Shown in pieces: positions 27 through 28,045 of a stretch of 45,457 nucleotides of DNA. This stretch comes from a virus, in the IMG/VR virus record IMGVR_UViG_3300017593_000447, positions 1-45,457 of that record, one strand, 5' to 3'. Position 1 is the stretch's first letter. Every line of letters begins with the position of its first letter. Below the pieces are notes generated by a model. That model did not search any database and was not told the DNA's origin. It saw nothing but the letters and a program-made list of their open reading frames with translations. The position numbers were made by a program, and so were the translations under genes.

Positions 27-518
27 GTGAGCGAGTTGCCGGTGGCCCAGACGCAGGCTCAGGCTGACTGCCCCATCTGCTCAGCAGGTGAACTCGGGGC
101 GACCTGGACGAGGGACCTGTTGGATGGGCGGCGAACGCTGGCCGAAGCCGCCGAGAGGTTTGCCTGTTCCATCGACCAAGTCTGGAGGCACGTCACAGAA
201 CACGAACTCCCTGAATCCGAGCGCCTGGAACTGGACGTCCGGTCCAAGCTCTGGAAGTGCATCCGCATCGCCGAAGACTGGTTAGCCGAGCTCATTATGA
301 CAACGCGTCCGGACTCCAGGACCGTGCGCCAAGTCGTGAGCCTGTTGGGTGAAATCCGCAAGCTACTGGTAGTATCAGCAGAAATTGAAGGTTCGCTCCC
401 TGTACCCGACGTGCAAGTCGTTCAGATTAACAATATCGTCCAAACAGTCGTCGGGGAGTTGTGCCCGGCCTGCCAAGCCAAGGTCCTTAGGGCATTGGAG
501 GTGGCGCACGTTGAATGA
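27..518 (+). CDS. Putative small terminase subunit (TerS)
   Basis: Protein of 163 residues with a GTG start; an in-frame TGA at 18-20 limits any upstream extension. It sits directly before, and overlaps by 8 nt, the recognisable large terminase, which is the usual place of the DNA-recognition subunit. Residues about 37-58 (LAEAAERFACSIDQVWRHV) look like a helix-turn-helix. A CPIC motif near the N-terminus and a CPAC motif near the C-terminus could bind one zinc ion. The middle is helical, as expected for oligomerisation. The role is inferred from position plus the HTH; small terminases are too divergent to recognise by sequence alone. No Shine-Dalgarno (SD) sequence is visible in the 26 bases before it, so the true start could lie outside the window. 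Confidence 0.6.
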   Translation: MSELPVAQTQAQADCPICSAGELGATWTRDLLDGRRTLAEAAERFACSIDQVWRHVTEHELPESERLELDVRSKLWKCIRIAEDWLAELIMTTRPDSRTVRQVVSLLGEIRKLLVVSAEIEGSLPVPDVQVVQINNIVQTVVGELCPACQAKVLRALEVAHVE

Positions 519-1875
519 CTTAAAAATCGCACTGAAACTGCGTCTGGACCCCACCTGGTTTATTGAAGAGGTGGTAGGGGTACAAATGTTCCCGAAGCAA
601 CGTGAAATCATGCAAACCTTCTACTCCCACAACTACCGTGACTTAGTCCTGGCATGTGGTATGCGTGCGGGCAAATCTGCCCTGGCTGCCATGTTCGCAG
701 TCGTTGAATTCGCCCAGCTCCTAACCTTGCCTAACCCACAAGCCCACTTCCACCTACTCCGCTCACAACCCATCACCATCTCCATCGTTTCCACTTCCGA
801 GTCCCAAGCCCTGGATTCCGTCTTTTCCAATGCCCGCACAATGATTGAGGACACCGACTTCTTCACCCAGTTCAACCTCTCAATCCGTGACCTCGAGGTC
901 CGCGACAAATCCAAGAACCTCTCCCTGAAGACCCTGTCCTCCTGGTCCACCACTGCAATTGGCCGCTCCAACAAAACCGTAATCTTAGATGAGGTCTCGA
1001 ACTTCGAACGAACCGCCGGTCGCCGGGGCGCTTGGCAAGTTTACACCAAACTCCGCAAGAGCACCGACACCTTCAAGGACGCTGGCCATACCATCGCTAT
1101 CTCCTCACCCGTGGACCCCAACGACATCATCATGACCCTGTACAAACGCAACGACCCCAAGACCCTCCGTTACCTACTCCCCACCTGGGAAATGAATCCC
1201 AACTACACTGAAGAAGAACTCCGCCGTGAACACCGCTTTGACCTCGCCGCCTTCTACCGAGACTACGCCTGCCAACCCGGTAGCATCTCAGGTCAAATGT
1301 TCCCCGAACCTCTGCACTTCACTCGTACTACCAACGTGCTTACCTCCGAACCTACCGTCCTAACTACCCGTGTCCTTGCCATTGACCCTGCTGTCCGCAA
1401 CGACTCCTTCGGTGTTGCCACCGGTTACATATCCCCTGACAACAAAATCATCGTAGATGGTGTCACCCGCTTCACCCGCGAGCACGACAAACCCTACATC
1501 TCCCCATCCCTTATCCGCGAATACCTCGAACACAAAATCCACACCCTCGGCATCATCACCGTCATCTTCGACACATGGATGTACCCCGAACTCATCGAGT
1601 TTCTCGATAACATGGGCGTTACGCCGGTGCAACATATTGTGAGGAAAGAGGACTATGATAGGTGGAAGGAGTTGGATGCGGCAGGACAGGTTGAGGTAGT
1701 GTGGGACGAGGTGTTGGAGCATGAGACTGAGAACCTGGTGATTGTGAGTGAGAAGAAAGTGGACCATCCACCCCAGGGCAGCAAGGATGTGGCGGATTGT
1801 GTTGCAAATGTCATTTGGTACCTGGCAACTCAGCCCTTGCCTGTCACTGAGGTAGCTGTGTGCCAGGCATTTTAG
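511..1875 (+). CDS. Large terminase subunit (TerL), ATPase-nuclease
   Basis: DNA-packaging motor of 454 residues that translocates DNA into the procapsid and cuts it. The ATPase part shows Walker A GMRAGKSALA (about residues 50-58) and Walker B KTVILDEVSNF (about 155-164). The RNase H-like nuclease part shows the acidic positions VLAIDPAVRN (about 288), TVIFDTW (about 350) and GSKDVADCV (about 422). I chose the TTG start at 511 because GGAGGTGG lies a few bases upstream and translation then couples to terS. A longer reading from 385 would run through most of terS. Synonymous codon choice changes abruptly near 1620, from C-rich (CTC, CGC) to G-rich (TTG, AGG). Confidence 0.93.
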   Translation: MNDLKIALKLRLDPTWFIEEVVGVQMFPKQREIMQTFYSHNYRDLVLACGMRAGKSALAAMFAVVEFAQLLTLPNPQAHFHLLRSQPITISIVSTSESQALDSVFSNARTMIEDTDFFTQFNLSIRDLEVRDKSKNLSLKTLSSWSTTAIGRSNKTVILDEVSNFERTAGRRGAWQVYTKLRKSTDTFKDAGHTIAISSPVDPNDIIMTLYKRNDPKTLRYLLPTWEMNPNYTEEELRREHRFDLAAFYRDYACQPGSISGQMFPEPLHFTRTTNVLTSEPTVLTTRVLAIDPAVRNDSFGVATGYISPDNKIIVDGVTRFTREHDKPYISPSLIREYLEHKIHTLGIITVIFDTWMYPELIEFLDNMGVTPVQHIVRKEDYDRWKELDAAGQVEVVWDEVLEHETENLVIVSEKKVDHPPQGSKDVADCVANVIWYLATQPLPVTEVAVCQAF

Positions 1876-1887
1876 GAGGTGGTCGGT

Positions 1888-3300
1888 ATGTTTGCCAAGC
1901 TGGCCAAGTGGTTCGTGAAGTTGGCTGGTGTAACTAGCCCGGTGACCGAAGCCCAGAGCATTGGGTCTGAACTCGTGAAGACCCTCGTCGAGCGTAGCAA
2001 CTTCTCCAGCCTGCATCCCTTCCAAGCCTACAGTCTCCTATACCACGACGAACCTGACATCGGGGGTGCAATCGACCGTCTCTCCACACTCGTAGCCCAA
2101 TCCTACCGCGGTGTTAGCCTCACCGACTTCACCGGTTCCGACGCCGAGGTCCGTTGCCTTGAGCTCGCCAGCTCCATTTCCCAGTCCCTCCGCTTCCCCT
2201 CACTCATCGAGCAGTGGACCGAAGGCCTACTCACATATGGCAACGTCTTCATCCGCAAGAAAGACCTCTACACCCTCCCCATCGAACACATAACCCTGCG
2301 CCCCCGGACCCTCGATTCCCTCACCGAAACCATCACTACCGCGGAAATCCTCTACCTCAACGAAGGTGACACTACCCACGAACAAACCTACCCCTACAAG
2401 GACATCTACCACCTCAAGTTCAAGGACACTCCCATCTACTTCACCGACATCAAAGGTCGCCCTACCTACTCCCTCTACTCCCCGTCTCCCCTCTCACGCC
2501 TCCTCCTCACTACCTGGTGGAAACGCCAAACCATGATTATCGATGTCCTATGGCGGTGGCGAATGGTGCCCCATGAGCACCACAAAATCTCCTCCTCCCT
2601 CTTCGACATCTCCCGCTACTCCGGTACCATCGAGGAGCGCCGCCAGAAAGCAACCCAGGATGCCCAGAACACCATCCGAGATTACATCACCAAACTCAAG
2701 ACCCAGGCCCCTGACCAGGGCTACGTGACCACAGACAACATTGAAATCGGGGTCGTAGAATCAAAGACCAAGTTCCTGGAGTCCAACGAGTTGTTAGCCC
2801 AGCTCGACGAGAAAGTCTGGCAAGCCCTGAACCTCCCCGAGTCCACTGTTTCTGGTCGTGCCCGTGGGTCCTATGCCAGTGAGTTGGTGAGTAGTAGTTT
2901 CGTAGGCATTAAGGTCTCAGCACTCATGACAAAGATTGAGCCTGTGTTACTGGATATCTTGAAACGTCGCATCAAGATGGTGGATGCATCCCTACCATAC
3001 GATAAGTTAAGATTGGAGTATGGGTTTGAGTTGGAGGCCGCTAAGATTGAGAAGTTCAGGGCGGCGAGCATCATGGCGAGTCTTGGGGCGTTTACCCTTG
3101 AGGAGATTAGGGCACGGGCTGGGTACCCCGCGGAGGTCAGGGGCAAGTTATTCAAAATTCCCACGACCCGTCCTCCAGGGTCTAAAGCCCCAGGTGATGT
3201 GTTGAGGGATGTTCAGCGGGGTACCGAACCTGAGATTGAGACGCCATGGAGTGAGGATGAGCATAGTGTTAGTTGGCGTAAGACGAAGGAGGTAAGGTAG
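1888..3300 (+). CDS. Portal protein
   Basis: Protein of 470 residues placed right after terL, as portals are. The ATG at 1888 follows TAGGAGGTGG with proper spacing. Sequence features fit an SPP1/HK97-like portal: an N-terminal helical part (VTEAQSIGSELVKTLVERS), a central stretch mentioning bilayered strands and a 'DIYHLKFK' segment, a stem region (GTIEERRQKATQDAQNTIRDYI), then 'LPESTVSGRARGSYASELVSS', similar to the portal motif that precedes the crown helix. The dodecameric portal is the vertex through which DNA enters and to which the tail binds. Codon use is C-rich from about 2000 to 2870 and G-rich afterwards. Confidence 0.85.
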   Translation: MFAKLAKWFVKLAGVTSPVTEAQSIGSELVKTLVERSNFSSLHPFQAYSLLYHDEPDIGGAIDRLSTLVAQSYRGVSLTDFTGSDAEVRCLELASSISQSLRFPSLIEQWTEGLLTYGNVFIRKKDLYTLPIEHITLRPRTLDSLTETITTAEILYLNEGDTTHEQTYPYKDIYHLKFKDTPIYFTDIKGRPTYSLYSPSPLSRLLLTTWWKRQTMIIDVLWRWRMVPHEHHKISSSLFDISRYSGTIEERRQKATQDAQNTIRDYITKLKTQAPDQGYVTTDNIEIGVVESKTKFLESNELLAQLDEKVWQALNLPESTVSGRARGSYASELVSSSFVGIKVSALMTKIEPVLLDILKRRIKMVDASLPYDKLRLEYGFELEAAKIEKFRAASIMASLGAFTLEEIRARAGYPAEVRGKLFKIPTTRPPGSKAPGDVLRDVQRGTEPEIETPWSEDEHSVSWRKTKEVR

Positions 3301-4055: not shown

Positions 4056-5819
4056 ATGGGCTGGCTGAGTGGTTGGGAGTACAGGAAGAAAATCACCATA
4101 CAAGGACAATCTGGCGTGGGTACCAACTACGCGGTACACCTGAAGATTGGGTCATCGTCAGGTGGTGACTTTCACCTTGAGGGTCACTGTCAGAACTTCC
4201 CACACGACATACGGTTTACTAGGTCGGACGGTGAGACCGAACTCAAATACTGGATAGAAGACCTGGGTGCTGACCCAATAGATGTGTGGGTGAAGATTCC
4301 AGATAGCCTGGACAGCAATGTTGACATTTATGTGTATTATGGTAGGAGTGGTGTACAGACCACCAGAAACGGTGATGATACCTTCGACTTCTTCGATGAC
4401 TTTGAAGGTGACAGCGTCGACACCAACAAGTGGATTGACTCTGCGTTCGATGGTGAGGTCGCAGATAGTAAGCTCAGAATCAAACCCTACACTGGCTACA
4501 ACTCCAATGTGCTGTCTCTTACATGTTTCCAAAAACCAAAGCAACTCGTCTTCAAGGGCTTCCTTCGTGCCGAATCCAACCGCTGGGACCACGCCGGTTT
4601 TAACCGCATGATTAAGGACTGCGACAACTCCGAGGCCAATGTTGCCTGCTACAACTACATCGATGCCTACGGCAGATGTGCCTCCATCGCAAACACCGAG
4701 GACGGGACCCGCTACTGCAACTACGTTCACCCTGCCTGGGACTCTGCGGTATGGCGACGGTACCACATTAAGTGGAAGGACGGTGACGTTGGTTTTTGGC
4801 TGACACCCTCCTCCCAATGGTACCACTTCACAGAACACACACCCGCCGGTTGCATGCGCGTCCGCCTCGGTAGTCGTCGCGAATCGGGAGCACCCGATAC
4901 CTACACCGAGATAGACTGGGTGTTCGTCGCTCCTTACCATGACCCCGAACCAACATTTAGTTCTGCCTCTTCCGAAGAGCACTGTGCCGAACTGGCCGGT
5001 ACCTCCGACGCCTCCTCATCTCTTCTGGGCACCGCCAAACGCATCCGTAACTACTCTGGCATTTCCTCCGCCCTCGTAACCATCACCGCCCCTCTCTCCC
5101 TCCTCTGGTCCCTGTCCGCCTCTTCCCCCGCCCAATCCACAACCTCCTCCATCCTCTCCATTACCTTCCCCCTCTCCGGTTCCTCATCCGCCAGTTCCAC
5201 CACATCCTCAGTCCTCAAACCTTTCCGTTCCCTCAGCGCAACTTCCCAAGCATCCCTCTCTACCCAAGCCCTCCTCTCCCCTCTCCGTCGCCTCCTTGGT
5301 AGCTCATCCGCCATCTCATCTACCCAAGCACCCCTCTCCCTCCTCTACATCCTCTCCGGCATCACCCCCTCCCAATCCACAACCACCGCCCACCTCTTCC
5401 GATGCTTCAGCCTCACCAGTCAAATCCCCGCGACCTCCGTTTGCTCCGGTACCCTCTCCCCCGTCCGCTCCCTCCTCGCCAGCTCATCACCCTTCTCTAC
5501 CACCCAAGCCTCCCTCCACCAATCCTTCTCCCTCTCAGGCTACTCCTCTTCAACTACCACCCTCTCCGGTACCTTGTACCCTGTTACCTTCATTTCAGGT
5601 TCCTTCTCTTCCTCCTCATCTACACAAGGTCTCTTGCATCGTTTCCGTTCCCTCAGCTCAATATGCCCCTGCTCCTCTACCCTTACTGGTTCCATTACTC
5701 ATACTTTCAAACTTCAAAACCTTACTAACCTTCACACCAAGTCCCTCGTCACTCTCAGCATCCAATCCACTACACCGCGTCACACATCCGTAATCACGTC
5801 TCGGAGGTCCATCAGATGA
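4056..5819 (+). CDS. DUF2341-domain fibre protein with Ser/Thr-rich repeat tail
   Basis: Protein of 587 residues. The first 110 or so residues (EYRKKITIQGQ, HDIRFTRSDGETELKYWIED, DVWVKIP, IYVYYG) match the DUF2341 pattern, a beta-sandwich domain common in archaeal surface proteins. Residues about 110-300 continue as a lectin/LamG-like beta domain (FFDDFEGDSVDTNKW). From about residue 310 the chain turns into 8-9 degenerate repeats of roughly 30 residues built from a Ser/Thr cluster (such as GSSSASSTTSS), a Leu/Pro/Arg strand (LSPLRSL) and a Gly. That architecture fits a fibrous stalk with an adhesin head, so I read it as a host-binding fibre. The repeat region has strongly C-rich codons. The end overlaps the next gene (ATGA). 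Confidence 0.7.
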   Translation: MGWLSGWEYRKKITIQGQSGVGTNYAVHLKIGSSSGGDFHLEGHCQNFPHDIRFTRSDGETELKYWIEDLGADPIDVWVKIPDSLDSNVDIYVYYGRSGVQTTRNGDDTFDFFDDFEGDSVDTNKWIDSAFDGEVADSKLRIKPYTGYNSNVLSLTCFQKPKQLVFKGFLRAESNRWDHAGFNRMIKDCDNSEANVACYNYIDAYGRCASIANTEDGTRYCNYVHPAWDSAVWRRYHIKWKDGDVGFWLTPSSQWYHFTEHTPAGCMRVRLGSRRESGAPDTYTEIDWVFVAPYHDPEPTFSSASSEEHCAELAGTSDASSSLLGTAKRIRNYSGISSALVTITAPLSLLWSLSASSPAQSTTSSILSITFPLSGSSSASSTTSSVLKPFRSLSATSQASLSTQALLSPLRRLLGSSSAISSTQAPLSLLYILSGITPSQSTTTAHLFRCFSLTSQIPATSVCSGTLSPVRSLLASSSPFSTTQASLHQSFSLSGYSSSTTTLSGTLYPVTFISGSFSSSSSTQGLLHRFRSLSSICPCSSTLTGSITHTFKLQNLTNLHTKSLVTLSIQSTTPRHTSVITSRRSIR

Positions 5820-7678: not shown

Positions 7679-8475
7679 GATATCTGAAGACTGAGTCCAC
7701 GTATATTTTGGGTGCCTTTTCATCGGGTGACTCTGTGACCATCTCTGTGTATAGGTTATCTGACAACACAAAGGTTGTGAACTCCGATTCATGTGATGAA
7801 ATTGGGACTACAGGCAAGTTTAAGTATTTGTTCTCTACAACTGTGAGTGACAAGACCGAGTTCCTGTGGGTCATGACTAATGGAACTGAAGAACAATGCG
7901 GTAAGATAATCTTGGGTGGCTGGCCCAATGAGATATGTGACAAACTGCCCGATGACTTTATAGCGGGGAGTGGTGATAAGATGTCGTTGGAGAGTAAGCA
8001 CGGGAGTGGGAGCTGGGAAGGTACTACACCAGAAGACATTGACGCGTTGTTATCGGAGAAGCATGGTACTGGTCCCTGGACAGGTGGCGGGGGTGGTGGA
8101 GGCGCAGGTTGTGTATGGTATCCTCAGGATAAGGAGGAGGTGCTCAAGATTTTAGGTGACCTGAGTGAGAGTAGTAGCAGGGAACTACAACTTCTTGGTA
8201 GCATCCAGTCACTGGTTCAGGAGCTCCGTAATTCTGTCGAGGCACGGGCTGAGGCTTTGGGTGCTGTGGTATCGAAGATTAAAGTGCCTACGGTGAACCA
8301 GATTAGAGCACTATTGAGTGAACTCCCCGAGCCTGTGACGGTGGACCAGATAGTTGAGGTATCGAGGAAGTTGGATGATATTACCCAGATGGTAGTACGG
8401 TTACTGAGGGATGAAGATATTGATGAGTTAATAGGAGGTGATGACGATGAGACCATTGCTGGTGGAATACAATAA
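7675..8475 (+). CDS. Virion protein with HGxGxW motifs, Gly linker and coiled coil
   Basis: Protein of 266 residues coupled to the upstream gene by ATGA overlap. Residues 1-90 form a beta-rich domain. Then come two copies of a motif, LESKHGSGSWEG and LSEKHGTGPWTG, of a type I know from phage baseplate and fibre proteins. A run of glycines follows (about residues 139-146). The C-terminal half is helical and coiled-coil-like (SSRELQLLGSIQSLVQELR, AEALGAVVSKIK), suited to trimerisation. The last 29 nt overlap the start of the ligase polyprotein, so the two may be translationally coupled. Confidence 0.55.
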   Translation: MRYLKTESTYILGAFSSGDSVTISVYRLSDNTKVVNSDSCDEIGTTGKFKYLFSTTVSDKTEFLWVMTNGTEEQCGKIILGGWPNEICDKLPDDFIAGSGDKMSLESKHGSGSWEGTTPEDIDALLSEKHGTGPWTGGGGGGGAGCVWYPQDKEEVLKILGDLSESSSRELQLLGSIQSLVQELRNSVEARAEALGAVVSKIKVPTVNQIRALLSELPEPVTVDQIVEVSRKLDDITQMVVRLLRDEDIDELIGGDDDETIAGGIQ

Positions 8476-11400
8476 GCGTGTGGGAAGACTGCAAGTGTTG
8501 GAGAAGCAGTTGAAGGAAAGGGTTAAGAAGTTATCTAAGCAAGTCGAGGAGTTGGAGTCAAGGAAAGGTGTGAGGTTGTTTAGCTGGAAGACAATTATAG
8601 AAGACCCCGGTGTCCTGAAGAAAGAGTCGGACGCGGGTCTCAGATTAGCCCATGCCTTGGCACATGCGTGGTGGAGGCACAAGGAAAAGCGCCCGGAGGG
8701 TATGACGGAGGAGGAGGTGAGGAAGTACTATGAGTTGGTGGTTGCGGAGATGAAGAGGCGGGGGATGAAGTATACGGAGCTTGGGGCACCGGTGTACAGC
8801 GTGAGGGACAAGCCGTTGGGTGAGCCCATAACATTGGACGAGTTGTACGAGTACTATGCGGAGCCGATTGTGCTGCGGGAAGGTGTCGTCAAGGTCGTGG
8901 GCGGTATTCCGAATTGGGGTGCCAGCAAAGGGGATATTGACCTGATGATTGATATGCCCGACGACACACCTGAAAGTATCTTACATCCCATTCGCTTCAG
9001 GTTAGGTCGGGCACTGCCTCCTGAGCTTAGCTGGCGTATCCAGTTCCACGACCCGAGTACCCAGCATCTCATGGGACCCTTCACCAATCACGCTACCCTC
9101 TATGACCTCGTCCTCGTACCACACCACCGGTTCGTTGAGATGGCTGGTCGCGTAGAGTTGTTCCGCTTTGTCCCTGTGCCCAAGACGAGTGTGGGGTACC
9201 ATGAGGGAGAGGTCACGGAGGTGGAGCAGGTGGTTGCGAGGTTTAAACCTGAGGACTACCCACTCGTGTGCTTTCCGCCAGGTACCGTGGTTGGGTTTGG
9301 TGCACCTATCGAGGATGTGAGAGAAGGTGACGTGACTGTCTCACAGGATGGGAGGACACAGAGGGTGGTTGCGACGATGCACCGGGCGTATGACGGTAGG
9401 TTAGTGTGTGTGAAGGTAGTGGGTCTACCTGAGATTAAGATGACACCTGAGCACCCGGTGTACGTTCGACGATATCGTAGGTGCTGGGATTCTACTGTTC
9501 GATGCTCTCCAGCAGCCCGTCGGGGGTCGTGTTATGGGTGTTGGAGGGAGGATAAGTTCCAGCCAATCTTCGAGGGTTGGGTCCCTGCAGAGGAGATTAG
9601 GAGGTATGATTATGTTAGGGTACCAGTGATTAAGGAGGAGGTTGATGTCGAGTGGGACGAGGATGCATTCGAGTTGTTCGGGTGGTATGTAGCTGAAGGT
9701 TGTGTAGGTAGGGAAGTTGGGACAGGAAGGTTGAGAGAGGTGATATGGACAAACAGTCAGGCATATGAGCATATAGCTGAGCTGGTGCGGAGGGTGTTTG
9801 GCAAAGCAGCAGTTGTAGAGACGCAGACATCGTACTGTGTGAACTTGTATGCGGCGAAACATGCGAGGTGGTTTGCCGAGGAGTTTGGGGCAAGAGCAAG
9901 TGAGAAGAAGATACCGGTGTGGGTGCTACTTGCACCAAAGAAGAAGTTGAGGAGATTTCTCGAGGGTTACCTCAGGGGTGATGGATGCAAGACGGAGTTT
10001 GGCTGGGTGGCGGGTACACAGAGTAAAGTGCTTGCATACCAGTTACGCCTGCTCGGTTTGAAGTTAGGATTCTGGGTTAGGGTGAATAGGTCCCGCTACC
10101 AGTACTTCGTGCACTTCTATCCACATCCGTCACAAAATGTGATTTGTAAAGATGGTGACATTTGGGTCAGAGTAGAAAAGGTATTTTCAGTTGACTACAC
10201 TGGTTTAGTGTATAACTTTGAAACAGAAGACAATACCTATACAACTGGATTCCTGGTACATAACTGCGAAAAGAAGTATGATGGTCTCGTGGTGGAGTGG
10301 CACAAGAAAGGTGACAAGATAGTAGCATTCACAGACTCTGGGAAGCGGTGCGAACATCGGTTCCCTCGGCTGATGAAGGCGTTGCGCCAACACCCTTGTC
10401 CGGAGTTGTTGTTGATGACTGAGACAGAGGGTTGGAGAGATGGTGAGCATATGGGTAGAGAGGAAATTTCTGGCTACGTGAACCAGCGGGGCATCCCAGA
10501 CGACAAATATGTGGTTGCAAATGTATGGGACGTGATTTGGTGCCGGCTACCTGAGAGGCACCATGACCTGCAGCCGGAGGGTGATGTTCACGAGTGGCCG
10601 TTGGAGCAGAGGATTAGGTTGCGCAGTGTGGTGGCTAAGCTGGGTGGATGGCAGGAAACGGATGAGGTACCGGAGCCGGGGTGGAATAATGTGCCGAGTC
10701 ATGTGTTGGAGGAGTTGGATGTGAGGAAGTTGAAGGCATTGCTCCTGAAGATTAGGGACTTACCTGGTAGTGAGGGCGTCATGATAAAGAGTATGCGGGA
10801 CTCGTTCCCCTTGACGGGTCATATCGCGAGTTGGGTGAAGTATAAGAAGAGTGCGGACCTGCATGTGGTTGTGTTGAAGAGGAATCCCACCCGGACAGAA
10901 GGGGTGTACAACTATACGGTGGGACTTTTAGCAGAGAAGGGGATGCCAGCCACAGAGGAGATGGCGCTGGGGAAGACGAAGGCTTGGGTTATGAACGTGG
11001 GGAAGACATCAAATATAGCGAGGCGCTTTGACCGGGGCACCATTTTAACGGTGATACCACATACATTGTTCCAGTATCCTGATGGTCGGGTGTCAGTGTA
11101 TGAGTGTCCAGTGTATGAGTCTCGGCCAGACCAGACGTTGCCAGATACGGTGGAGGAGGCAGTGGAGATTGCGAGGAAGGCTGGGATACTGAGGGTGAAG
11201 GCTCGGGAGTCAGGGGCGTTAAGATTTGTACTCCAACTACATGCACGTGGTAAGAGCATACATGGTGACTTGAGGTTAGAGAAGACGCCGGGTGGGCCAC
11301 TGGAAGGGTGGACACTGAACCTGGATGAGGGCAAGATTGAAGAGCCGGTGCGGGGGCTGGAGGACATAAGGAGGATTGAGAAGCAGTGGAATAGGTATCT

Positions 11401-12277
11401 GGAGCCGTTGGATGAGCCTGGGCACCAGATATTGGCTGAGTCCAAGAAGGATGAGCCCCATGAGTGGTTGGAAGTGGACAATAGGGTTGACCCGCCGGGT
11501 GGGGTAATTGCGACGAAGAACTGGCCTGGGGTCATGGTCATTGTGGATAAGGGTACTTATGAGCGGGGTGCCCAGAAGCCGTATTACAGGGAGTGGTTCT
11601 TTCATGGTAAACGTCTAAAAGGCCGCTATGTAACTCGGCTCTTGCATCTGAGGGGTGAGCCGGTGTGGATGTTTTGGAAGTGCAAGTCAGAGGAACCGTA
11701 TGTGCTGAGCCTGCGGGCGATACGCGAGGGTTGGTATCCGAAGGAAGGAAGTGGGTTGCCGAGCGAGTTGGAGAAGCAGGTGCCGGAGGAGCTGAGGTAC
11801 TGGGAAGTGACGGGTAAGGAAAGGGATGAGAGGAGGAAGAAGCTCAGGAGGTTGTGGCTCAAGAAGTTTGCTGGGAATAGGTGGCTGCTGCAGTACCAGT
11901 GGTGGCGGGGGCAAGTGGTGAAGCGGCGCGGGCCCTCGAGGGACGTGTATATATTTAGGGCGATATTCGGGGACAAGGTTAAGCAGTGGGAGATGACTAA
12001 GGACCCGAGGCAGGGTGCAGTTCCGGGTGTGTATAAGGAGACGAAGTATGATGAGTTCTGGGATACAGAGGAAACGGTAGCTGTTCCGCCGGGTACAGAG
12101 TATAACAGGACTAAGGCAACGCCGTCCTGGTTGATGACACTGGACTCGGGGACGTTGGGTGTGTTGCAAGAGGAACCGTTGGTGGTGAAGTATAAGTTGA
12201 GGAGGGGGCTGACGTTTGTAGCAACGAGGACAGGACCAGATGAGAAGGTGTGGGAGTGTGAGATTGCCCCTGAGTGA
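8447..12277 (+). CDS. NTase - ATP-dependent DNA ligase (with intein) - 3'-phosphoesterase polyprotein
   Basis: A 1276-residue precursor; removing the 332-residue intein leaves 944 residues. The ATG at 8447 is best spaced from TAGGAGGTG. Order of parts: a coiled-coil start; a Pol-beta-type nucleotidyltransferase (VGGIPNWGASKGDIDLMID near residues 150-170, with a third Asp in TLYDLVLV); then the adenylation domain with motif I EKKYDG (catalytic Lys codon 10274-10276), motif IV EGVMIK and motif V WVKYKK. Next is a LigD-PE-like domain (FVLQLHARGKSIHGDLRLE, later FFHGKRLKGRYV and PVWMFWK), then about 200 C-terminal residues that may be a degenerate second copy. The set resembles LigD, with a Pol-beta-type fold in place of the primase-type polymerase. 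The gene sits between fibre genes and the head protease, so it may act on packaged DNA ends or travel in the virion; that is inference. Confidence 0.85.
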   Translation: MRPLLVEYNKRVGRLQVLEKQLKERVKKLSKQVEELESRKGVRLFSWKTIIEDPGVLKKESDAGLRLAHALAHAWWRHKEKRPEGMTEEEVRKYYELVVAEMKRRGMKYTELGAPVYSVRDKPLGEPITLDELYEYYAEPIVLREGVVKVVGGIPNWGASKGDIDLMIDMPDDTPESILHPIRFRLGRALPPELSWRIQFHDPSTQHLMGPFTNHATLYDLVLVPHHRFVEMAGRVELFRFVPVPKTSVGYHEGEVTEVEQVVARFKPEDYPLVCFPPGTVVGFGAPIEDVREGDVTVSQDGRTQRVVATMHRAYDGRLVCVKVVGLPEIKMTPEHPVYVRRYRRCWDSTVRCSPAARRGSCYGCWREDKFQPIFEGWVPAEEIRRYDYVRVPVIKEEVDVEWDEDAFELFGWYVAEGCVGREVGTGRLREVIWTNSQAYEHIAELVRRVFGKAAVVETQTSYCVNLYAAKHARWFAEEFGARASEKKIPVWVLLAPKKKLRRFLEGYLRGDGCKTEFGWVAGTQSKVLAYQLRLLGLKLGFWVRVNRSRYQYFVHFYPHPSQNVICKDGDIWVRVEKVFSVDYTGLVYNFETEDNTYTTGFLVHNCEKKYDGLVVEWHKKGDKIVAFTDSGKRCEHRFPRLMKALRQHPCPELLLMTETEGWRDGEHMGREEISGYVNQRGIPDDKYVVANVWDVIWCRLPERHHDLQPEGDVHEWPLEQRIRLRSVVAKLGGWQETDEVPEPGWNNVPSHVLEELDVRKLKALLLKIRDLPGSEGVMIKSMRDSFPLTGHIASWVKYKKSADLHVVVLKRNPTRTEGVYNYTVGLLAEKGMPATEEMALGKTKAWVMNVGKTSNIARRFDRGTILTVIPHTLFQYPDGRVSVYECPVYESRPDQTLPDTVEEAVEIARKAGILRVKARESGALRFVLQLHARGKSIHGDLRLEKTPGGPLEGWTLNLDEGKIEEPVRGLEDIRRIEKQWNRYLEPLDEPGHQILAESKKDEPHEWLEVDNRVDPPGGVIATKNWPGVMVIVDKGTYERGAQKPYYREWFFHGKRLKGRYVTRLLHLRGEPVWMFWKCKSEEPYVLSLRAIREGWYPKEGSGLPSELEKQVPEELRYWEVTGKERDERRKKLRRLWLKKFAGNRWLLQYQWWRGQVVKRRGPSRDVYIFRAIFGDKVKQWEMTKDPRQGAVPGVYKETKYDEFWDTEETVAVPPGTEYNRTKATPSWLMTLDSGTLGVLQEEPLVVKYKLRRGLTFVATRTGPDEKVWECEIAPE
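9269..10264 (+). mobile_element. Intein with LAGLIDADG homing endonuclease, in ligase motif I
   Basis: In-frame insertion of 332 codons. It starts at Cys (CFPPGTVVGFGAPIEDV, block A) and has the block B-like TPEHPVYVR. Two LAGLIDADG-type motifs are present, LFGWYVAEG and FLEGYLRGDG. It ends with VYNFETEDNTYTTGFLVHN followed by Cys as the +1 extein residue. All splicing residues look intact (C1, TxxH, HN/C), and the endonuclease acidic residues are present, so both activities are plausible. Removal joins DYPLV to CEKKYDG, which restores the ligase active-site motif three residues before the catalytic lysine. Confidence 0.92.
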
Positions 12278-12554: not shown

Positions 12555-12600
12555 ACTACATATAAATAGGTTTTGTAAGTCCCAGCCCGCGTGTTCACAT
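12555..12600 (+). promoter_or_regulatory. TATA-box promoter for the head-gene cluster
   Basis: TATAAATAGG at 12561-12570, preceded by an A-rich stretch and followed by TTTTGTAAG. The distance to the ATG at 12648 leaves a leader of about 60 nt if transcription starts about 25 bases after the box. A second weaker TATA (CTTTATACTA, 12611-12620) follows. The TATAAATAG plus TTTTGTAA combination recurs at 44054-44076. Confidence 0.5.
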
Positions 12601-12647
12601 TACAAAACTACTTTATACTATTCCCCGATATCTATATCCGAGGTACC

Positions 12648-13775
12648 ATGGTTGAGTTTAGCGTGGCACACAAGTCAGATGTGAAGGTTGCAGACGAAAC
12701 ACTGGTAGTTTCGGGACCGTTGCTAAAGCCAGGCACCTTTACTACTGCGGACCGGCAGACAATTACGTTTACGGCAGATACAGTGAGAAAGATATACGAG
12801 AAAATCGACTCGAACATGCCGTTTGTCATCACGCATGGTGGTGACAAGATAGTGGGGTATGCAACCAAGTTTTCGCTGACACCATCAGGTGAGATATACT
12901 ACCAAGGCTATGTGTTCGATGAAAAGGACAAGATATTAAAGGAAGGGTTCGACAGTGTATCCGGGGAGTTTGACGTTGTCATGGATGGTAGTGTGGCGAA
13001 GGATGGTACCCTTGAAAGGATAGCATTTGTTAAGGTACCCGCAGTACCGGGTGCCGAGGTAAAGAAGGCAAAGGAGGTGATGATGGAAGGTATGGCTGAA
13101 GAAGAGGAGATAGATGTGCCTAAGGTAGTTGAAGAAGTGCTGGAAGAGGTCGTAGAGCTGGAGAAGCCAACGTTCAATGAGTTCTTGAAGGCGGTCAGAG
13201 ATAGACTGAAGAAGAAGGGGTTGAACCCAATACAAATTAATACAGTAGTCTCGGTGCTGAAGACATTGATAAAGGTTCCATACCCGTATCCGTATCCGAA
13301 GGCAAAGGCAGAGGGCGAGCGACCCACGATGCAGGAATGGTTGAAGGCACTCAAGGATAAGTTGTCGGCCAAGGGCTTGGACCGGCAAACCATCCAGAAG
13401 GTAGTGGCAGTCATGTCAGATATGATGAAGACGCCGTATCCATACCCATATCCACAGGCTAAGGGCGAGGGTACACTCGAGGAGTTTAGTGCGTTGCAGG
13501 ATGAGTTAGAGCAGGTAAAGGAGCAGTTAGAGGGATACAGGAAGAAGGAGCTGGAGGTGCTGAAGAACGAGGTCAAAGAACTGGGATTGGATGCGGATGG
13601 TATGGTGAAGGACATGGGTGTTGAGGAAGCAATCACGTTCTTGGGTAAGGTTAAGGAAGGTGTTGCATTGAGCAAGCCAGAGAGTTCAGAAAAGTCAGTA
13701 CGGATTGGTGGCACGAGTGTAGCCCAGGAAGTGTTGGATGAGTTGGGATTAGGAGATGAGGTGCAGATTGAGTAG
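12648..13775 (+). CDS. Prohead protease fused to scaffold
   Basis: Protein of 375 residues. The N-terminal 145 residues look like a U35/S78-type prohead protease: strands VVSGPLLKPGTF, a His in FVITHGGDKIVGYA, and a Ser in FDSVSGEFDV followed by IAFVKVPAVPGAEV. His and Ser are the expected catalytic pair. The C-terminal 230 residues are scaffold-like, acidic and helical, ending in a coiled coil (EFSALQDELEQVKEQLEG). In between are two repeats of about 55 residues, each a helical unit (FNEFLKAVRDRLKKKGL; MQEWLKALKDKLSAKGL) closed by PYPYPYP. It lies right before the decoration and capsid genes. I start at 12648 because upstream codons have no initiation signal. Confidence 0.75.
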   Translation: MVEFSVAHKSDVKVADETLVVSGPLLKPGTFTTADRQTITFTADTVRKIYEKIDSNMPFVITHGGDKIVGYATKFSLTPSGEIYYQGYVFDEKDKILKEGFDSVSGEFDVVMDGSVAKDGTLERIAFVKVPAVPGAEVKKAKEVMMEGMAEEEEIDVPKVVEEVLEEVVELEKPTFNEFLKAVRDRLKKKGLNPIQINTVVSVLKTLIKVPYPYPYPKAKAEGERPTMQEWLKALKDKLSAKGLDRQTIQKVVAVMSDMMKTPYPYPYPQAKGEGTLEEFSALQDELEQVKEQLEGYRKKELEVLKNEVKELGLDADGMVKDMGVEEAITFLGKVKEGVALSKPESSEKSVRIGGTSVAQEVLDELGLGDEVQIE

Positions 13776-14217: not shown

Positions 14218-14230
14218 GAGGTGAGTGGGT

Positions 14231-15100
14231 ATGAAAATCAATCTTGGTGGTGTGACTACGTCGGATAAGGATATAGTGAAGCGGGAAATTATCAAGAAGG
14301 TGGTGTACAAGAAGGCAGAGGAAATGTTGGTGGGGAAGAATGCAATCCCCCTTGAGTCCAGTGATGCGTTGGACCTGAAGTTTGTGTTGCCGAAGCAGAC
14401 GGAGATAGCGCCAACGAAGGTTGCTGAGGGTGCACGGGCAAAGCGCAAGAGACTGGAGTGGTTCGAGGTGTCGCAGTATCTGGAGAAGTATCAGACGGAG
14501 GTCCTCATTACGGACGAGGCGAAGGCACGACAGTTGGAGAAGCTACAAACCCGGAAGTCCTTGGACGCTGCGTCCCGTGGAATGGCTGTTGCTAAGGACA
14601 AGGACATATTCACGGTGTTGTCTGCGGGTGCTGGTAAATCAGAGGCAGCCACGGCATGCTGGGACACTGCTAGTGCTGACCCCGTAGGCGATATTGCCAA
14701 GGCCATAGCGTACATCATGGACAATACGGTGTTGCTGGAGACGGAGCTCAAGAACATAAATGTGTTCTACCCAGCCCAGTTGTTTGCGCATCTCACGAAG
14801 CTCACGGAAATAGAGAACATACACCGCAGTGTCATAGACTACATGAAGGCACAGTGGGGTATTGGGTTCTTCCCAACGAGGCAACTGGCGGACGACGCAC
14901 TGGTTGTTGTGAACAGTCCAGAGACTGCATTCCACTACACATACACGGGTGCTGATGTGCCTACGAGTGAGGAGGAACGGATACCTGGTGTCGGGGACAG
15001 TTACCTGATAACGCAGTACTTTAAGACGTTCATAATGCCTGAGGAGGAGGGTGGCACCACGAACAAGAGGATATACAAGATAACGAACGTAGTGACATAA
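14231..15100 (+). CDS. Major capsid protein, HK97 fold
   Basis: Protein of 289 residues. The ATG at 14231 is well placed after AGGAGGTGAGTGGGT. The sequence pattern (SSDALDLKFVLPKQTEIAP, a basic helix ARAKRKRLEWFEVSQYL, a long spine helix, then ITDEAKARQLEKLQTRKSLDAASRGMA, INVFYPAQLFAHL, and the end FKTFIMPEEE) fits HK97-like capsid proteins of archaeal and bacterial head-tailed viruses. The order protease, decoration, capsid, neck supports it. Confidence 0.85.
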   Translation: MKINLGGVTTSDKDIVKREIIKKVVYKKAEEMLVGKNAIPLESSDALDLKFVLPKQTEIAPTKVAEGARAKRKRLEWFEVSQYLEKYQTEVLITDEAKARQLEKLQTRKSLDAASRGMAVAKDKDIFTVLSAGAGKSEAATACWDTASADPVGDIAKAIAYIMDNTVLLETELKNINVFYPAQLFAHLTKLTEIENIHRSVIDYMKAQWGIGFFPTRQLADDALVVVNSPETAFHYTYTGADVPTSEEERIPGVGDSYLITQYFKTFIMPEEEGGTTNKRIYKITNVVT

Positions 15101-19808: not shown

Positions 19809-21530
19809 ATGACGTGGACAGTAAAGATTGCGGGGTCTGAGGTCCCGGTATCGGATTTAAGGATTGATTTGAGACTTGATAGGCTCAACTATGCGAGGGT
19901 CGTGGTACCGGTTACTGTGACCCCGCAGTTGTTTCAGGAGGTAGGGATTTGGTGGGATGGAAGCTTGATTTTTGAGGGGTTTGTGACACGAAGAAAGAGG
20001 AGGCAAGATAAGTACTGGGAGGTGGAGTGCCAGGAGCTGGCTTGGGAGTTGGAACGGCACCTGGTGATGAGTGGGCATAAGAAGAAGATTAAGGTGAAGA
20101 TTGATAACGCGGGTGGGGTACTCAGGGATTACCCGGTGTATGTGCCGGTGTACTGGGAGGAGGGGATGGATGAGAACTTTGGGGACTTGGTATTTGCGGA
20201 TAGTCAGAATGTTGTGTTGCCACATTGGATTGAGGAGTATGTGGCTGGGAACTGGGCAGGGGTTTGGGTGAAGTGTAGTGAGATACCGGCGGGCACGTCG
20301 TATGTGTGGTGTTACTTTGATACGGATGCACCGGCAGGAGGTGTTGGCAGTGGGAGCGCGGTGTTTCCGGTGTTCATTGATTGTGAGTCAGGGACGCCGG
20401 AGGATTGGTTTATGGTGCAGGGTGGTTTTCTGGCGTCTATGGCATTTGAGAATGGATACCTGAAGGTGTGGTTTGAGGATGCCGCTGGGTATAACGTGGT
20501 GACGGTGCGGGGTTTTGATGGAACTGATTATGCGTTGGAGGCAGATGTTAAAACAGAGGGGGATATGGACGTGGGTATGATGGTAAGGCGGGAGAGTTTG
20601 ACGGCGAAGTTTGGGTACTTTGAGATGATGCCCAGTAAAGGAGCGTTGTTCGCAAGTCATATGTCTGGGTATACGACGCTTTGTACTGGGCCGACATATC
20701 CAGTAGATGACTGGTATAAGTGGTCGTTTAGGGTGTGTGGGAATAAGTTGAAGGGTGTACATGAGAATGGTGTGATATGTGATGGTGAGAGCGGGGACTT
20801 TAGTCATGGAGCGTGTGGGTTTACGTTGTATCCACATGCACTGGATGCGGTGCTCTGGGTAGACAGGGTGAGGGTTCGTCCATATGCACTGCCAGAACCG
20901 TCAGTAACGCCCCTGGGGTCAGAGACTGCGGAAGGCAGTCCCTTTTCTTTGGAGGCGACATTCACGGGAAAGACGGCCAGCCAGATTGTGAACTCGGTGG
21001 CGGGTCCTCTGGGTTGGAGTGTAGGGGATGACTTTGAGGATATGACAATTGAGAGATTTACGGTGAAGGACGACAATATCTTAGATGTGGTGACGAAGCT
21101 GGCGAGGGAGTATATGGAGAAGGAAATTTGGTTTGGCCCGGGGCGTAAGATTAACATTGCGGGTGCAAGGTCTGGGGATGCGGTGCAGGTTGCGGAGTTG
21201 CATGTGGTGGCGGATGTGGAGGATGGGACAACACAGTGTGATGGAGTGGTGGTGCGGGGACAGGGAAATGTGACAGGGGTTGCCGGGAACCCGTCGGGCA
21301 AGTGCACGTTGTTGCATGACATGAGGATTAAGACGGTGGAGGACGCAAACGCATTTGCGGCTCGGGAACTTGCGATGAGGAGTGCCCCGGTGCCCTGGAT
21401 AGAGGCGACAACGACGTTGAGGAACCTGAAGGAGGCGATGAAGGTGGATGTACCAGGACACAGTGTGTATAAGGTAGAGAGTGTAGTGATGGATGTGAGG
21501 GATGTGAAGCTGAAGTTGGTGAAGGTATGA
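19809..21530 (+). CDS. Tail hub (gpD-like) protein with inserted DUF2341 domain
   Basis: Protein of 573 residues. The N-terminus (WTVKIAGSEVPVSDLRIDLR, then WWDGSLIFEGFVTRRKRR) and the C-terminus (FTGKTASQIVNSVAGPLGW, IERFTVKDDNILDVVTKLA, IEATTTLRNLKEAM) look like a phage baseplate hub of the gpD/gp27 type. Between them, about residues 90-370, sits a DUF2341-type domain (HKKKIKVKIDNAGG, HWIEEYVAGNWAGVWVKC, YVWCYFDT) followed by a LamG-like part. The insertion suggests a hub that carries its own carbohydrate or surface-binding module. Confidence 0.65.
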   Translation: MTWTVKIAGSEVPVSDLRIDLRLDRLNYARVVVPVTVTPQLFQEVGIWWDGSLIFEGFVTRRKRRQDKYWEVECQELAWELERHLVMSGHKKKIKVKIDNAGGVLRDYPVYVPVYWEEGMDENFGDLVFADSQNVVLPHWIEEYVAGNWAGVWVKCSEIPAGTSYVWCYFDTDAPAGGVGSGSAVFPVFIDCESGTPEDWFMVQGGFLASMAFENGYLKVWFEDAAGYNVVTVRGFDGTDYALEADVKTEGDMDVGMMVRRESLTAKFGYFEMMPSKGALFASHMSGYTTLCTGPTYPVDDWYKWSFRVCGNKLKGVHENGVICDGESGDFSHGACGFTLYPHALDAVLWVDRVRVRPYALPEPSVTPLGSETAEGSPFSLEATFTGKTASQIVNSVAGPLGWSVGDDFEDMTIERFTVKDDNILDVVTKLAREYMEKEIWFGPGRKINIAGARSGDAVQVAELHVVADVEDGTTQCDGVVVRGQGNVTGVAGNPSGKCTLLHDMRIKTVEDANAFAARELAMRSAPVPWIEATTTLRNLKEAMKVDVPGHSVYKVESVVMDVRDVKLKLVKV

Positions 21531-24463: not shown

Positions 24464-25593
24464 TACCTACCACCTCCTATCAAAACAACCTTCTCCTTCG
24501 TTACTCTCACCAACCTCATCCTCTCCATCAGCCTAAGCGTTTCTACCAACTGCTGGAGGTCCCACCCTAACATAAACGCATCCTGCATCAACTTACTCCT
24601 CGTAACCTCTCCTCCCTCGTCCTCAATCAACTTAATCACCTGCCTAAACTCACCACCAATGCTAATCTGCCGCCGCCACGCTATTTCCCTGTTTACCAGT
24701 GCCCTGGCTTCATCATCATCCAGCGCTACAAACACCCTCTTTTCCACACCCTTCAACAGTGTCCATCCCAACAACAACCTATCAAACAGCGTCCCCTCAT
24801 ACGGATATATGCCCAGGGACTTGTACTCCTGTAGCAACCCCTCATCAAACTCCAACCTCTCAATCTGACCTATCTCCGCCTTCCACTGCCTCAGCTTCCT
24901 CCATAACTTCTCCAGCCCTTCCTTATCGGGCGCGACCCCCTTGGACTCGTGCCACGCGGTCAGTAAGTTATCGGCGTCCTGGCGAGTGGGGAGGAAGAGC
25001 AGGAAGCAGAATCGGCGGCCCATGCCAGATGTGAGGTCGTAGCGGGCTGGCTGGACGCCACCCCAAAGTGTGAATTGGGAGTTGTATTCGATTTTGCCAT
25101 GGGCCAGGCGCTTGTAGGCGTAGCCGGAGTCGAGGAGTGAAAGAAGTTGGGTGTCAAGCAGTCCGGAGTGCTGGGTGTTCATCATGCGGGTGATGGCACT
25201 AAACTCATCTACTCCGATGATGCCATCAGCAAACTCTTTGGCTGCCCCTTCCTCTACACACAGCACCCCGTTCACACTGCCTATCGTCCCTATCAACCCA
25301 GCCTCCGTGAGTGTGGCCTCAAAGGTCTTACGCACCGTGTTTCCCAGTATGCAGTAGGGTCCGCGTATCATGGTCTCGAGGAAATAAGTCTTCATGAACC
25401 CCGGGGGCGCTACAAAAATGAGATGCAGGCGTAGAGATGGCAGGTTCCGACCTTCCCAGTAGAAGCGGTGGCGCTGGTTGTGGAGGTTGAAGAAGTGGCA
25501 GGCCACGGAGGCCATGTAGAAGGGGGCATAGACATCGGCAAGGTAGACGTGTCGTTGGTGCAGTTCCTCCAGGACATCATCTATTATAGCCAT
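24463..25593 (-). CDS. MCM-like AAA+ ATPase, putative replicative helicase
   Basis: Protein of 376 residues. Walker A is APPGFMKT (about residues 62-69) and Walker B is GIIGVDEFS (about 124-131). A strand-loop segment follows (HGKIEYNSQFTLWGGVQPARY), then GMGRRFCFLLFLP (about 189-201), similar to the MCM arginine-finger region. The C-terminal 80 residues look like a winged helix. The MCM N-terminal DNA-binding domain is missing, so this is a minimal AAA+ core plus winged helix. It overlaps the nuclease gene stop (TAATG) and starts with ATG at 25593 after GGAGGGTGG. It could also be a helicase loader; no other helicase is seen in the window. Confidence 0.65.
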   Translation of the reverse strand: MAIIDDVLEELHQRHVYLADVYAPFYMASVACHFFNLHNQRHRFYWEGRNLPSLRLHLIFVAPPGFMKTYFLETMIRGPYCILGNTVRKTFEATLTEAGLIGTIGSVNGVLCVEEGAAKEFADGIIGVDEFSAITRMMNTQHSGLLDTQLLSLLDSGYAYKRLAHGKIEYNSQFTLWGGVQPARYDLTSGMGRRFCFLLFLPTRQDADNLLTAWHESKGVAPDKEGLEKLWRKLRQWKAEIGQIERLEFDEGLLQEYKSLGIYPYEGTLFDRLLLGWTLLKGVEKRVFVALDDDEARALVNREIAWRRQISIGGEFRQVIKLIEDEGGEVTRSKLMQDAFMLGWDLQQLVETLRLMERMRLVRVTKEKVVLIGGGR

Positions 25594-26201
25594 TAATACA
25601 CCACCCTCCACCTCTTTACCCGTTCCTTCATCTCCACCAACTTCTTATCGCCAATCCCATACACCAACTTCAACCTCTCTGGTCTCGTCTGCAACGCCTC
25701 AACCACACTCTGTAGCCCCTGATAATTCCTCATCAGGTCCTCTGCAGTCGTAAGACTCACCCCAAACAACTTCGCCACCAACACTACCCCTGGCAACCTA
25801 TGTGGCCGCCCCACTGCCCTCTGCTCCACCTTCTTCATCCACTTCACCATGACCCAGCACCCAAACACCGGGTCCTCCGTGTGCAGCACCCGATACCCAT
25901 ACCGAGCCAGTACCGATGCCAGCAGACCCGCGACCGCTTCCTTTGGCTCACACATACCCGTGACCAGCAACATATACTCCTTATCAGTAGTAAGCCCCTT
26001 ACCCAGCTGCACAAACAACCTGCCCTGCTTACTACTCTGCAACAGGTCCTGTGCCGTCTTCCTCTCACACACCGCGTGCTCGGTGGCATAGTCCCCGATT
26101 TCCAGTGGCCGCTCCTGTACCTCGAATCCCTCATACCTAGCTAACCTCGCTACTATCTTCCTATACTTCTGCTCCCTCGTATCCACATACAGCACGCCCA
26201 T
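25593..26201 (-). CDS. ERCC4/XPF-family nuclease with helix-hairpin-helix
   Basis: Protein of 202 residues. The nuclease motif is intact: VDTREQ (about residues 6-11), IGDY (about 35-38) and CERKTAQD (about 45-52), the GDx(n)ERKx3D signature. The C-terminal 60 residues contain an HhH2 pattern (LPGVVLVAKLFGVSLTTAED, GIGDKKLVEMKERVKRW). XPF-type nucleases cut branched DNA and replication forks. The ATG at 26201 follows GGGAGGTTTGTGTGAG and lies 1 nt after the stop of the cyclohydrolase gene. Confidence 0.85.
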   Translation of the reverse strand: MGVLYVDTREQKYRKIVARLARYEGFEVQERPLEIGDYATEHAVCERKTAQDLLQSSKQGRLFVQLGKGLTTDKEYMLLVTGMCEPKEAVAGLLASVLARYGYRVLHTEDPVFGCWVMVKWMKKVEQRAVGRPHRLPGVVLVAKLFGVSLTTAEDLMRNYQGLQSVVEALQTRPERLKLVYGIGDKKLVEMKERVKRWRVVY

Positions 26202-26202
26202 C

Positions 26203-26928
26203 TCACACAAACCTCCCGCGCCTATTCACCGCTACCATCGAGTGTTGGTGCAGACTCTCCAGGTGTTCTACCTCTACCAAATATTCGTCCATACCCGCCT
26301 CCTCGAGTGCCTGTCCAATCCGCCTTGCTGCATCCTCTGCAAATACCTGGTACTCCCGCTTACTCGCCCTGACACACCACTCCAACTCTTCCTCCCGTTT
26401 CATCACCGTCTTAGGCATCAGAAACAACCCTGCCAACACATCCACCAAATCCTTGTCCCACACTGTCGTTACCTTCATCACTGAGCGTTGCTGGTGTGGG
26501 ATGCCCTCACCCACCACCCTGCACATCTCGGCGGCACATGGACACGTACTCACGTACCCCAGTTCCACTGTCATGTACAAGTCGTCAGAATACTCAACCT
26601 TCCTCTTTACCACCAAGCCCCTCTCTACACACTCCCACTTACACATGTACGTCACAGACGTATGGTGTGTCTGCTCCAGTTCACTGACCAGTGCCCGCAC
26701 ACTTCCCTGACTCAACTCTGCCTCAGCCCACCTCATCAACACCCCCGCCAATCTACTTGCGTGTATACCCCGCCGGTCCGTCAGCCTCACATACGCTGAC
26801 TGCCTCGTCACGACATCACTACCCTGCCAAACCCTCATCACTGGCACATCCTTTACACCCACTATCAATGGCTTCGGCTCCTTTAACCTCTGTGCTGCTA
26901 TGTCCGGGAGTAACTTCGCTGTCGTCAT
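26203..26928 (-). CDS. folE2: GTP cyclohydrolase of the FolE2/MptA type
   Basis: Protein of 241 residues. Hallmarks of the GCYH-IB (FolE2/MptA) family are visible: GIHASRLAG near residue 54, the metal-site segment STCPCAAEMC and the later IPHQQRSVMKV, plus LESLHQHSMVAVN at the end. This enzyme opens the GTP ring, the first step toward preQ0 in the 7-deazaguanine pathway. Its place beside queE and queD confirms that role here. It overlaps the queE stop (ATGA). Confidence 0.85.
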   Translation of the reverse strand: MTTAKLLPDIAAQRLKEPKPLIVGVKDVPVMRVWQGSDVVTRQSAYVRLTDRRGIHASRLAGVLMRWAEAELSQGSVRALVSELEQTHHTSVTYMCKWECVERGLVVKRKVEYSDDLYMTVELGYVSTCPCAAEMCRVVGEGIPHQQRSVMKVTTVWDKDLVDVLAGLFLMPKTVMKREEELEWCVRASKREYQVFAEDAARRIGQALEEAGMDEYLVEVEHLESLHQHSMVAVNRRGRFV

Positions 26929-27542
26929 CTAAAGCCAAACACCTCCTGCATCCGCATCACAAAACCAACGCGCCGGGTCCTCGTCCTAAGGTGCATGACT
27001 AACCGGGCACACTGCTCAATCGGGTTTCGCCCCGGCCTACTCAACGGCATCAACAATGCCGTGCCCCTTACCCTCTCTGCCCACCGTGTTTTCCGCCCTA
27101 CATCCTCAACATCCTCAACATCCACGACCAACTTCACAACTACACCTGTATACCTCGCCCACTTCTCCAACGTCTTCTCACTCTTCGGTGACACTACCAT
27201 AACCGCCCGCCTCATCAACCAGTGACCCGGAAGCACATCTCCATTCGTCTCCACAATTACTGGCTGACCCCGGGGGAGTGCCCGCACCACCTTCTTCAGC
27301 TCCCTCAACTGCAATAGTGGTTCGCCACCCGTAAAGACTACTGGCCCGGGGTACTGCTTGCATAGCCGTGCGACCAGACGCCAAGGTACCTCGAAACCAC
27401 CCTCCGGGTCCAATGCGTACTGGGTATCACACTCAATCGGACAACTGTGTCGTCGGTTGCATCCCTGTAACCTGATGAACAAACACGGTACCCCGGCCGG
27501 AAACTCCCCTTGCCATGACTCGAAGATTTCACATACCTTCAT
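26925..27542 (-). CDS. queE: 7-carboxy-7-deazaguanine synthase, QueE-like radical SAM enzyme
   Basis: Protein of 205 residues, the usual QueE length. The start VCEIFESWQGEFPAGVPCLFI, the FTGGEPLLQ motif, and VETNGD are typical. QueE turns 6-carboxy-tetrahydropterin into 7-carboxy-7-deazaguanine. The [4Fe-4S] cysteines are C28, C34 and C38 (GCNRRHSCPIECDT), that is CX5CX3C, where most QueE proteins have CX3CX2C. This could be an adapted cluster loop. Gene order queD-queE-folE2 supports the assignment. Confidence 0.85.
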   Translation of the reverse strand: MKVCEIFESWQGEFPAGVPCLFIRLQGCNRRHSCPIECDTQYALDPEGGFEVPWRLVARLCKQYPGPVVFTGGEPLLQLRELKKVVRALPRGQPVIVETNGDVLPGHWLMRRAVMVVSPKSEKTLEKWARYTGVVVKLVVDVEDVEDVGRKTRWAERVRGTALLMPLSRPGRNPIEQCARLVMHLRTRTRRVGFVMRMQEVFGFR

Positions 27543-27584
27543 AGCTCATCACCTATGCTTGTTATGTTATGCCTGCAGTGCCTC

Positions 27585-27983: not shown

Positions 27984-28045
27984 ATTCCCATCGCCTCCTA
28001 TTTTCATTTTATTCATTTTGTTTACTCAAGTTTCATTTTCTTTTA

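Follow-up and report, generated by a model that had tools for sequence, protein, structure and literature searches.

Bacterial LigD, which belongs to NHEJ, has the layout POL-PE-LIG with a primase-type polymerase, and its domain order varies among species, as it does in the viral family described here. In Methanocella paludicola the NHEJ enzymes are separate proteins, the polymerase again being of the primase type, and the ligase and the 3'-phosphoesterase (PE; structure 5DMP) cooperate. In eukaryotic NHEJ, Pol X and Lig4 are likewise separate proteins. Polyvalent phage proteins are large multi-domain enzymes encoded alongside virion genes, some of them fused to structural proteins, and their co-injection with the DNA has been proposed; the passages found on them in PMC5512222 mention RNA ligases, and no DNA ligase or LigD PE.

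The viral record analysed here (45,457 bases, hereafter the window) encodes a protein in which a nucleotidyltransferase (NTase) core, an ATP-dependent DNA ligase and a LigD-type PE are joined in one chain. This arrangement, proposed in an initial annotation of the same DNA, is borne out by motifs, by profile matches and by the same order in relatives. As in bacterial LigD, a nucleotide-transfer domain is linked in one chain to an ATP ligase and to a PE with a His-His-Asp site. Unlike LigD, the viral chain contains a Pol-beta-superfamily core, a degenerate second PE-like domain (PE2), changed equivalents of PE residues His84 and Tyr88 and a setting among head genes; no Ku was detected in 41 viral records, many of them fragments, under conditions where the B. 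subtilis positive control matched. The viral chain would work in the manner of LigD yet is not one, as it lacks the AEP polymerase and has a different PE phosphate site. The PE is homologous to that of the M. paludicola set, from which the viral version differs in being a single polyprotein. Among the weak PDB matches of the NTase, TdT and Pol mu rank first, and in this respect the viral enzyme resembles the Pol X and Lig4 pair of eukaryotes. The combination of ligase and MBL domains in some members recalls Lig4 and Artemis as a combination, without implying SNM1-group membership; the fused MBL domains match Lactamase_B_2/RNase Z models. Unlike eukaryotic Pol X, the viral NTase appears to be palm-size and often lacks the third Asp. 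Like polyvalent phage proteins, the family has several enzyme domains per chain and either lies among the genes for the head or is joined to a head protein; it differs from them in being centred on DNA-end repair and partly fused to a prohead protease.

The frame of the enzyme opens at a GTG and is uninterrupted (Table 1); position 8447, formerly taken as its start, is an internal ATG. Direct library searches with the window protein gave weak matches: LAGLIDADG_3 (5e-5), Intein_splicing (3e-4), DNA_ligase_A_M (0.0014) and, in NCBIfam, DNA ligase models (1.5e-6 at best) as well as LigD models (0.003-0.006). A single-sequence search of the PDB yielded one match, the Korarchaeum PE 3p43 (E=0.008). 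Helices were placed at residues 5-65 of the related locus L001 by a first structure model that was otherwise poor (6 sequences, pLDDT 36). A Pyr_excise (UV-glycosylase) domain upstream of the NTase was considered and rejected, its E value being 1.9 in the window and 9e-5 in L105 across ~29 residues only. The intein (residues 278-609) begins with Cys, ends with His-Asn, is followed by Cys and is inserted three residues ahead of the ligase catalytic lysine. The protein of L001, 89% identical, is intein-free at the same site, with PLALEKKYDG against PLV, intein, CEKKYDG in the window. Inteins or intein-sized inserts lie within or beside the ligase part in L108, L128, L138 and L099, and the ribonucleotide reductase ORF of the window (34859-37648, minus strand) also holds an intein (LAGLIDADG_3 3e-7, Hint_2).

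Table 1. Features of the enzyme ORF and of the neighbouring head genes in the window
Feature	Coordinates	Strand	Evidence and remarks
Entire enzyme ORF	8438..12277	+	1279 aa with intein; order repeated in L001 and ANMV-1
N-terminal coiled-coil/helical stretch	8438..8773	+	L001 ORF lacks first ~45 residues
Pol-beta-superfamily NTase core	8774..9214	+	HMM span; motifs D166/D168 and D223; PDB profile matches; model
Intein, 332 aa	9269..10264	+	LAGLIDADG; Cys1 ... His-Asn/Cys; intein-free L001
ATP-dependent DNA ligase core and OB-type part	10265..11164	+	K613, E779, G780; Pfam/NCBIfam (weak); Foldseek
LigD-type 3'-phosphoesterase (PE)	11195..11839	+	H935, H942, D944, R946; PDB profile matches; hhalign
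Second PE-like domain, degenerate, metal triad gone	11801..12274	+	3p43 E=2e-4; hhalign Prob 96% against cellular PE
Terminase large subunit-like	385..1875	+	Pfam GpA_ATPase 9e-5, under cut-off
Portal protein	1879..3300	+	Pfam Phage_portal 6e-6, under cut-off
Prohead protease-like/scaffold	12591..13775	+	Phage_scaffold 0.0017 only; protease part inferred
Major capsid protein	14225..15100	+	Phage_capsid_4 4e-5, under cut-off

A direct homologue with the order NTase-LIG-PE-PE2 is found in the ANMV-1 virus (AJP62006; tblastn E=3e-39, 24.7% identity with 96% of the query covered). Its gene adjoins the portal gene, and the two full proteins align in register throughout the NTase, ligase, PE and C-terminal parts, the ANMV-1 protein being intein-free and shorter at its N-terminus than that of the window. 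AJP62006 was deposited (KP703175) as 'ATP-dependent DNA ligase' only, and no ligase is mentioned in the main text of the ANMV-1 paper (PMC4372165). A search for close relatives using the ANMV-1 protein returned no additional loci. Profile scans retrieved loci L005 and L006, L007 and L008 in a Methanosarcinales MAG, and more contigs from Halobacteriota genomes; a search with the PE-domain profile retrieved 72 viral contigs. Most matches of the family profile in Halobacteriota genomes were to ~560-aa frames with the ligase core only (~profile positions 234-455); these were taken as host replicative ligases and set aside. After clustering at 80% identity over half of the shorter protein in order to remove near-duplicates, 63 distinct loci remained, several of them fragmentary; NTase, ligase and PE are all present in 54, as one ORF in 33. 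The commonest architectures are NTase-LIG-PE (22), NTase-LIG / PE (20) and NTase-PE-LIG (6), the remaining orders being rarer; in L008 the PE lies in a separate coiled-coil ORF ~3.5 kb downstream. Additional fused domains are MBL (7/26), a Dam-type methyltransferase (5/26) and a PNK 3'-phosphatase (PNK3P, 2/26). The domain order recurs in ANMV-1 (~25-32% identity) and in dozens of virus loci with near-invariant catalytic residues, and is therefore beyond chance. The initial annotation, unaware of any virus enzyme described with this order, overlooked AJP62006, albeit labelled DNA ligase, and the large IMG/VR family. A description of the architecture was not found in open-licence PMC papers, and the family is widespread in viruses and apparently undescribed. 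Individual loci show further peculiarities. In L059 (4578-10485) an ORF with MBL, ASCH-like, NTase and ligase domains is followed by one with a PE and two PE-like units, an arrangement reminiscent of the Artemis-ligase pairing. Putative N-terminal ASCH-like domains were also noticed by sequence inspection in L005 (4733-5400), L006 (1386-1990) and L061, and in the Methanosarcinales MAG G001 family members occur on four contigs (C107, C138, C184, C195).

Residue conservation was counted using one representative per cluster, gaps being excluded. The NTase motif of the window, VGGIPNWGASKGDID, spans residues ~154-168 with the DxD at D166/D168, and the third Asp is present as D223 within LYDLVL; the Pol-beta-type motif and later Asp noted at the outset were thus correctly identified. 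At the scored positions the first G of the GG/GS motif and the DxD are each conserved in 55/55 family members. Comparison of the NTase profile with the PDB gave 23 matches at E<10, each weak singly and all belonging to the Pol-beta superfamily, with TdT ranking best (E=0.05), followed by Pol mu, an NTase-domain protein and an aminoglycoside adenylyltransferase. Pfam matches in this part are NTP_transf_2 (7/52 members) and DNA_pol_B_palm (3/52), again with weak E values. The NTase stretch of an AlphaFold2 model follows the order alpha-beta-alpha-beta(DxD)-alpha-beta-beta. No AEP family occurs among the Pfam/NCBIfam domain matches of the window protein and its relatives, and the proposal that the polymerase slot holds a non-primase fold is upheld by the conserved DxD and by the Pol-beta-superfamily matches, weak as these are. 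The term 'polymerase domain' applies as far as superfamily membership goes, a polymerase function being at most putative. Pfam/NCBIfam searches of the window protein matched no 8-kDa/HhH, fingers or thumb domain of Pol X, the NTase seems confined to a core of palm size flanked by helices, and just 26/55 relatives have the third Asp, so nucleotide addition is probably not retained across the whole family. Cellular Pol X palm domains were found neither in 60 related genomes nor in 14 controls, so this negative is uninformative.

The ligase part displays motif I (K613-YDG) and GSEG at 777-780. In the scored rows of the family, the lysine is conserved in 53/54, the glutamate in 55/56 and the two EG positions in 55/56 and 56/56. 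DNA_ligase_A_M is matched by 23/26 relatives (best 2e-26, Pfam), and their strong NCBIfam matches include NHEJ-ligase and LigD models. The AlphaFold2 model was built from 45 aligned family proteins (pLDDT 85.8, pTM 0.55); the 50 Foldseek matches listed against the PDB are all DNA ligases, alone or within complexes, and among them are the LigD LIG domain and complexes of NHEJ ligation. The top 50 listed for this model comprise only ligases, capping enzymes or unnamed entries. On the basis of motifs I, III, IV and V and of the OB part, the protein is a member of the ATP-dependent DNA ligase superfamily, in agreement with the motifs originally reported.

The PE of the window contains the motif H935-ARGKSI-H942-G-D944-L-R946 and GAQKPYYREW at 1044. 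The profile of 30 members matched five PDB entries (best E=5e-4), every one a PE structure, and a comparison by hhalign with PE sequences from 12 cellular archaeal proteins yielded Prob 97%; the PE-like region is accordingly of the LigD type, as had been supposed. Equivalents of the metal-site residues are conserved in the family: His42 in 54/54, His48 in 56/57, Asp50 in 56/57 and Arg52 in 55/57. In the register of the PDB and cellular-PE alignments, the position of His84 is occupied by Gln in 34, Glu in 17 and His in 4 of 60, and that of Tyr88 by Trp in 60/60. The His-His-Asp triad and the Arg thus survive alignment, and His84 and Tyr88 mostly do not: the metal site is kept and the phosphate site rebuilt. 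The P. aeruginosa LigD PE requires the triad as well as His84 and Tyr88 (PMC8656161). As both of the latter are mostly replaced here, 3'-phosphatase activity is not to be presumed; given also the frequent absence of the third NTase Asp, gap filling and 3'-phosphatase activity remain predictions. The last ~155 residues, included earlier in a single C-terminal PE region, form the second PE-like domain (Table 1). Three separate PE2-like fragments occur on the L065 contig (1447-1674, 3299-3790, 14050-14256); two of these are short and carry in-frame stops.

The location of the enzyme among virion genes, as first described, is confirmed by portal and capsid neighbours and reinforced by protease fusions in relatives. 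Tail-tube gene(s) also lie near the enzyme ORF in the window, and homologues of the 12591-13775 ORF are found directly 3' of the enzyme in L001, L088 and L105. According to our own greedy ORF-based gene calls, the nearest upstream ORF in relatives is the portal in 15/30 and Mu-F in 4/30, and the nearest downstream ORF is the prohead protease in 7/50 and the capsid protein in 7/50. XkdF was detected in 12/41 viral records, in 10 of which (some near-identical) it shares a frame with family domains; examples are L073, L076, L098 and L110, with the order NTase-PE-PE2-LIG-XkdF, and L095, with just PE2-XkdF. Separate from these XkdF fusions, L058 encodes ligase-PE-DUF2213-NTase-scaffold in a single frame, its protease part being 31.6% identical to the ANMV-1 'prohead protease' (E=4e-16); the L058 ligase has an internal stop, so this locus may be broken. 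The 12591-13775 ORF contains two PYPYPYP linkers, and the L058 polyprotein ends in a similar motif. Since enzyme and protease are fused in some members, the enzyme may be packed in the virion, and these fusions are the strongest hint of prohead entry. The head-gene position is insufficient by itself to establish packaging, and the window enzyme is not fused to its own protease.

The reading that we find somewhat probable is that of a virion-linked, NHEJ-like DNA-end repair polyprotein acting on viral DNA around packaging or injection; we infer its activity, virion entry and DNA substrate. The intein would remove itself from the chain by splicing. The Pol-X-like NTase core could bind a nucleotide, or add one, at a 3' end. 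The PE, using its His-His-Asp metal site, would trim or clean 3' ends; the second PE-like barrel would probably bind DNA or protein; and the ligase would seal strands through lysine-adenylate. Produced together with the head genes, the enzyme would probably enter the prohead, as the protease-fused relatives suggest, and would act at packaging or soon after injection by sealing breaks or closing the genome, end joining proceeding without a virus-encoded Ku. A more specific version is advanced tentatively: a Ku-independent, head-carried end-joining machine in one polyprotein (Pol-X-like core, PE, ligase), partly with the maturation protease, that would mend the entering genome or close it into a circle. 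In some lineages, this polyprotein would add MBL and 3'-phosphatase domains.

Repair restricted to the infected cell, where nicks or breaks in replicating or pre-packaging viral DNA would be mended and the head-gene position would merely reflect late expression, is consistent with all the activities and with the enzyme forming a separate ORF, unfused to a structural protein, in the window as well as in ANMV-1 and in many relatives. This reading is nevertheless unlikely, as recurrent adjacency to portal, protease or capsid genes and the XkdF or DUF2213 fusions favour head association. The same domains might instead repair tRNA or rRNA, possibly against host defences: the NTase would put back bases, the PE would trim and the ligase would join the RNA. 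Phage RNA ligases do partner with NTases (RlaP, PMC7824862), a PE can take off 3' ribonucleotides (PMC8656161), the fused MBL domains are RNase Z-like, and Pfam RNA_ligase and 2H-type domains are matched in 4/26 and 1/26, respectively. DNA and NHEJ ligase models match far better, however, and the listed Foldseek structures are DNA ligases, which renders an RNA substrate improbable. Finally, the loss of the PE2 triad, the variable third NTase Asp and the PE2-like fragments carried by themselves in L065 could point to a mainly structural chain, its enzyme domains having become scaffold-like or internal head modules and its NTase and PE2 pseudo-enzymes. We regard this as very improbable, because the ligase lysine, the PE triad and the DxD are near-invariant in highly divergent members, which argues for selection for catalysis.

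If confirmed, the DNA-end repair polyprotein would represent a novel one-chain end-joining architecture, in which a bacterial-type PE and ligase are combined with a Pol-beta-type core as in eukaryotic NHEJ, and would account for a protein so far labelled merely 'DNA ligase'. Through the recurrent prohead-protease link, the idea of a repair kit carried by virions becomes open to direct testing, and the breadth of the family makes it a possible source of new end-joining enzymes.

The virus is of the head-tailed kind and its host is probably an archaeon, given the related loci in the Methanosarcinales MAG, the ANMV-1 homologue and a family-B DNA polymerase (PolB) nearest to those of haloarchaeal viruses. 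Elsewhere in the window, two DUF2341-containing fibre-like proteins are encoded at 4056-5819 and 19809-21530 (plus strand), and the region 25593-30956 (minus strand) encodes an ERCC4 nuclease, a FolE2 GTP cyclohydrolase (9e-28) and the PolB. The FolE2 gene could be a hint of 7-deazaguanine DNA modification.
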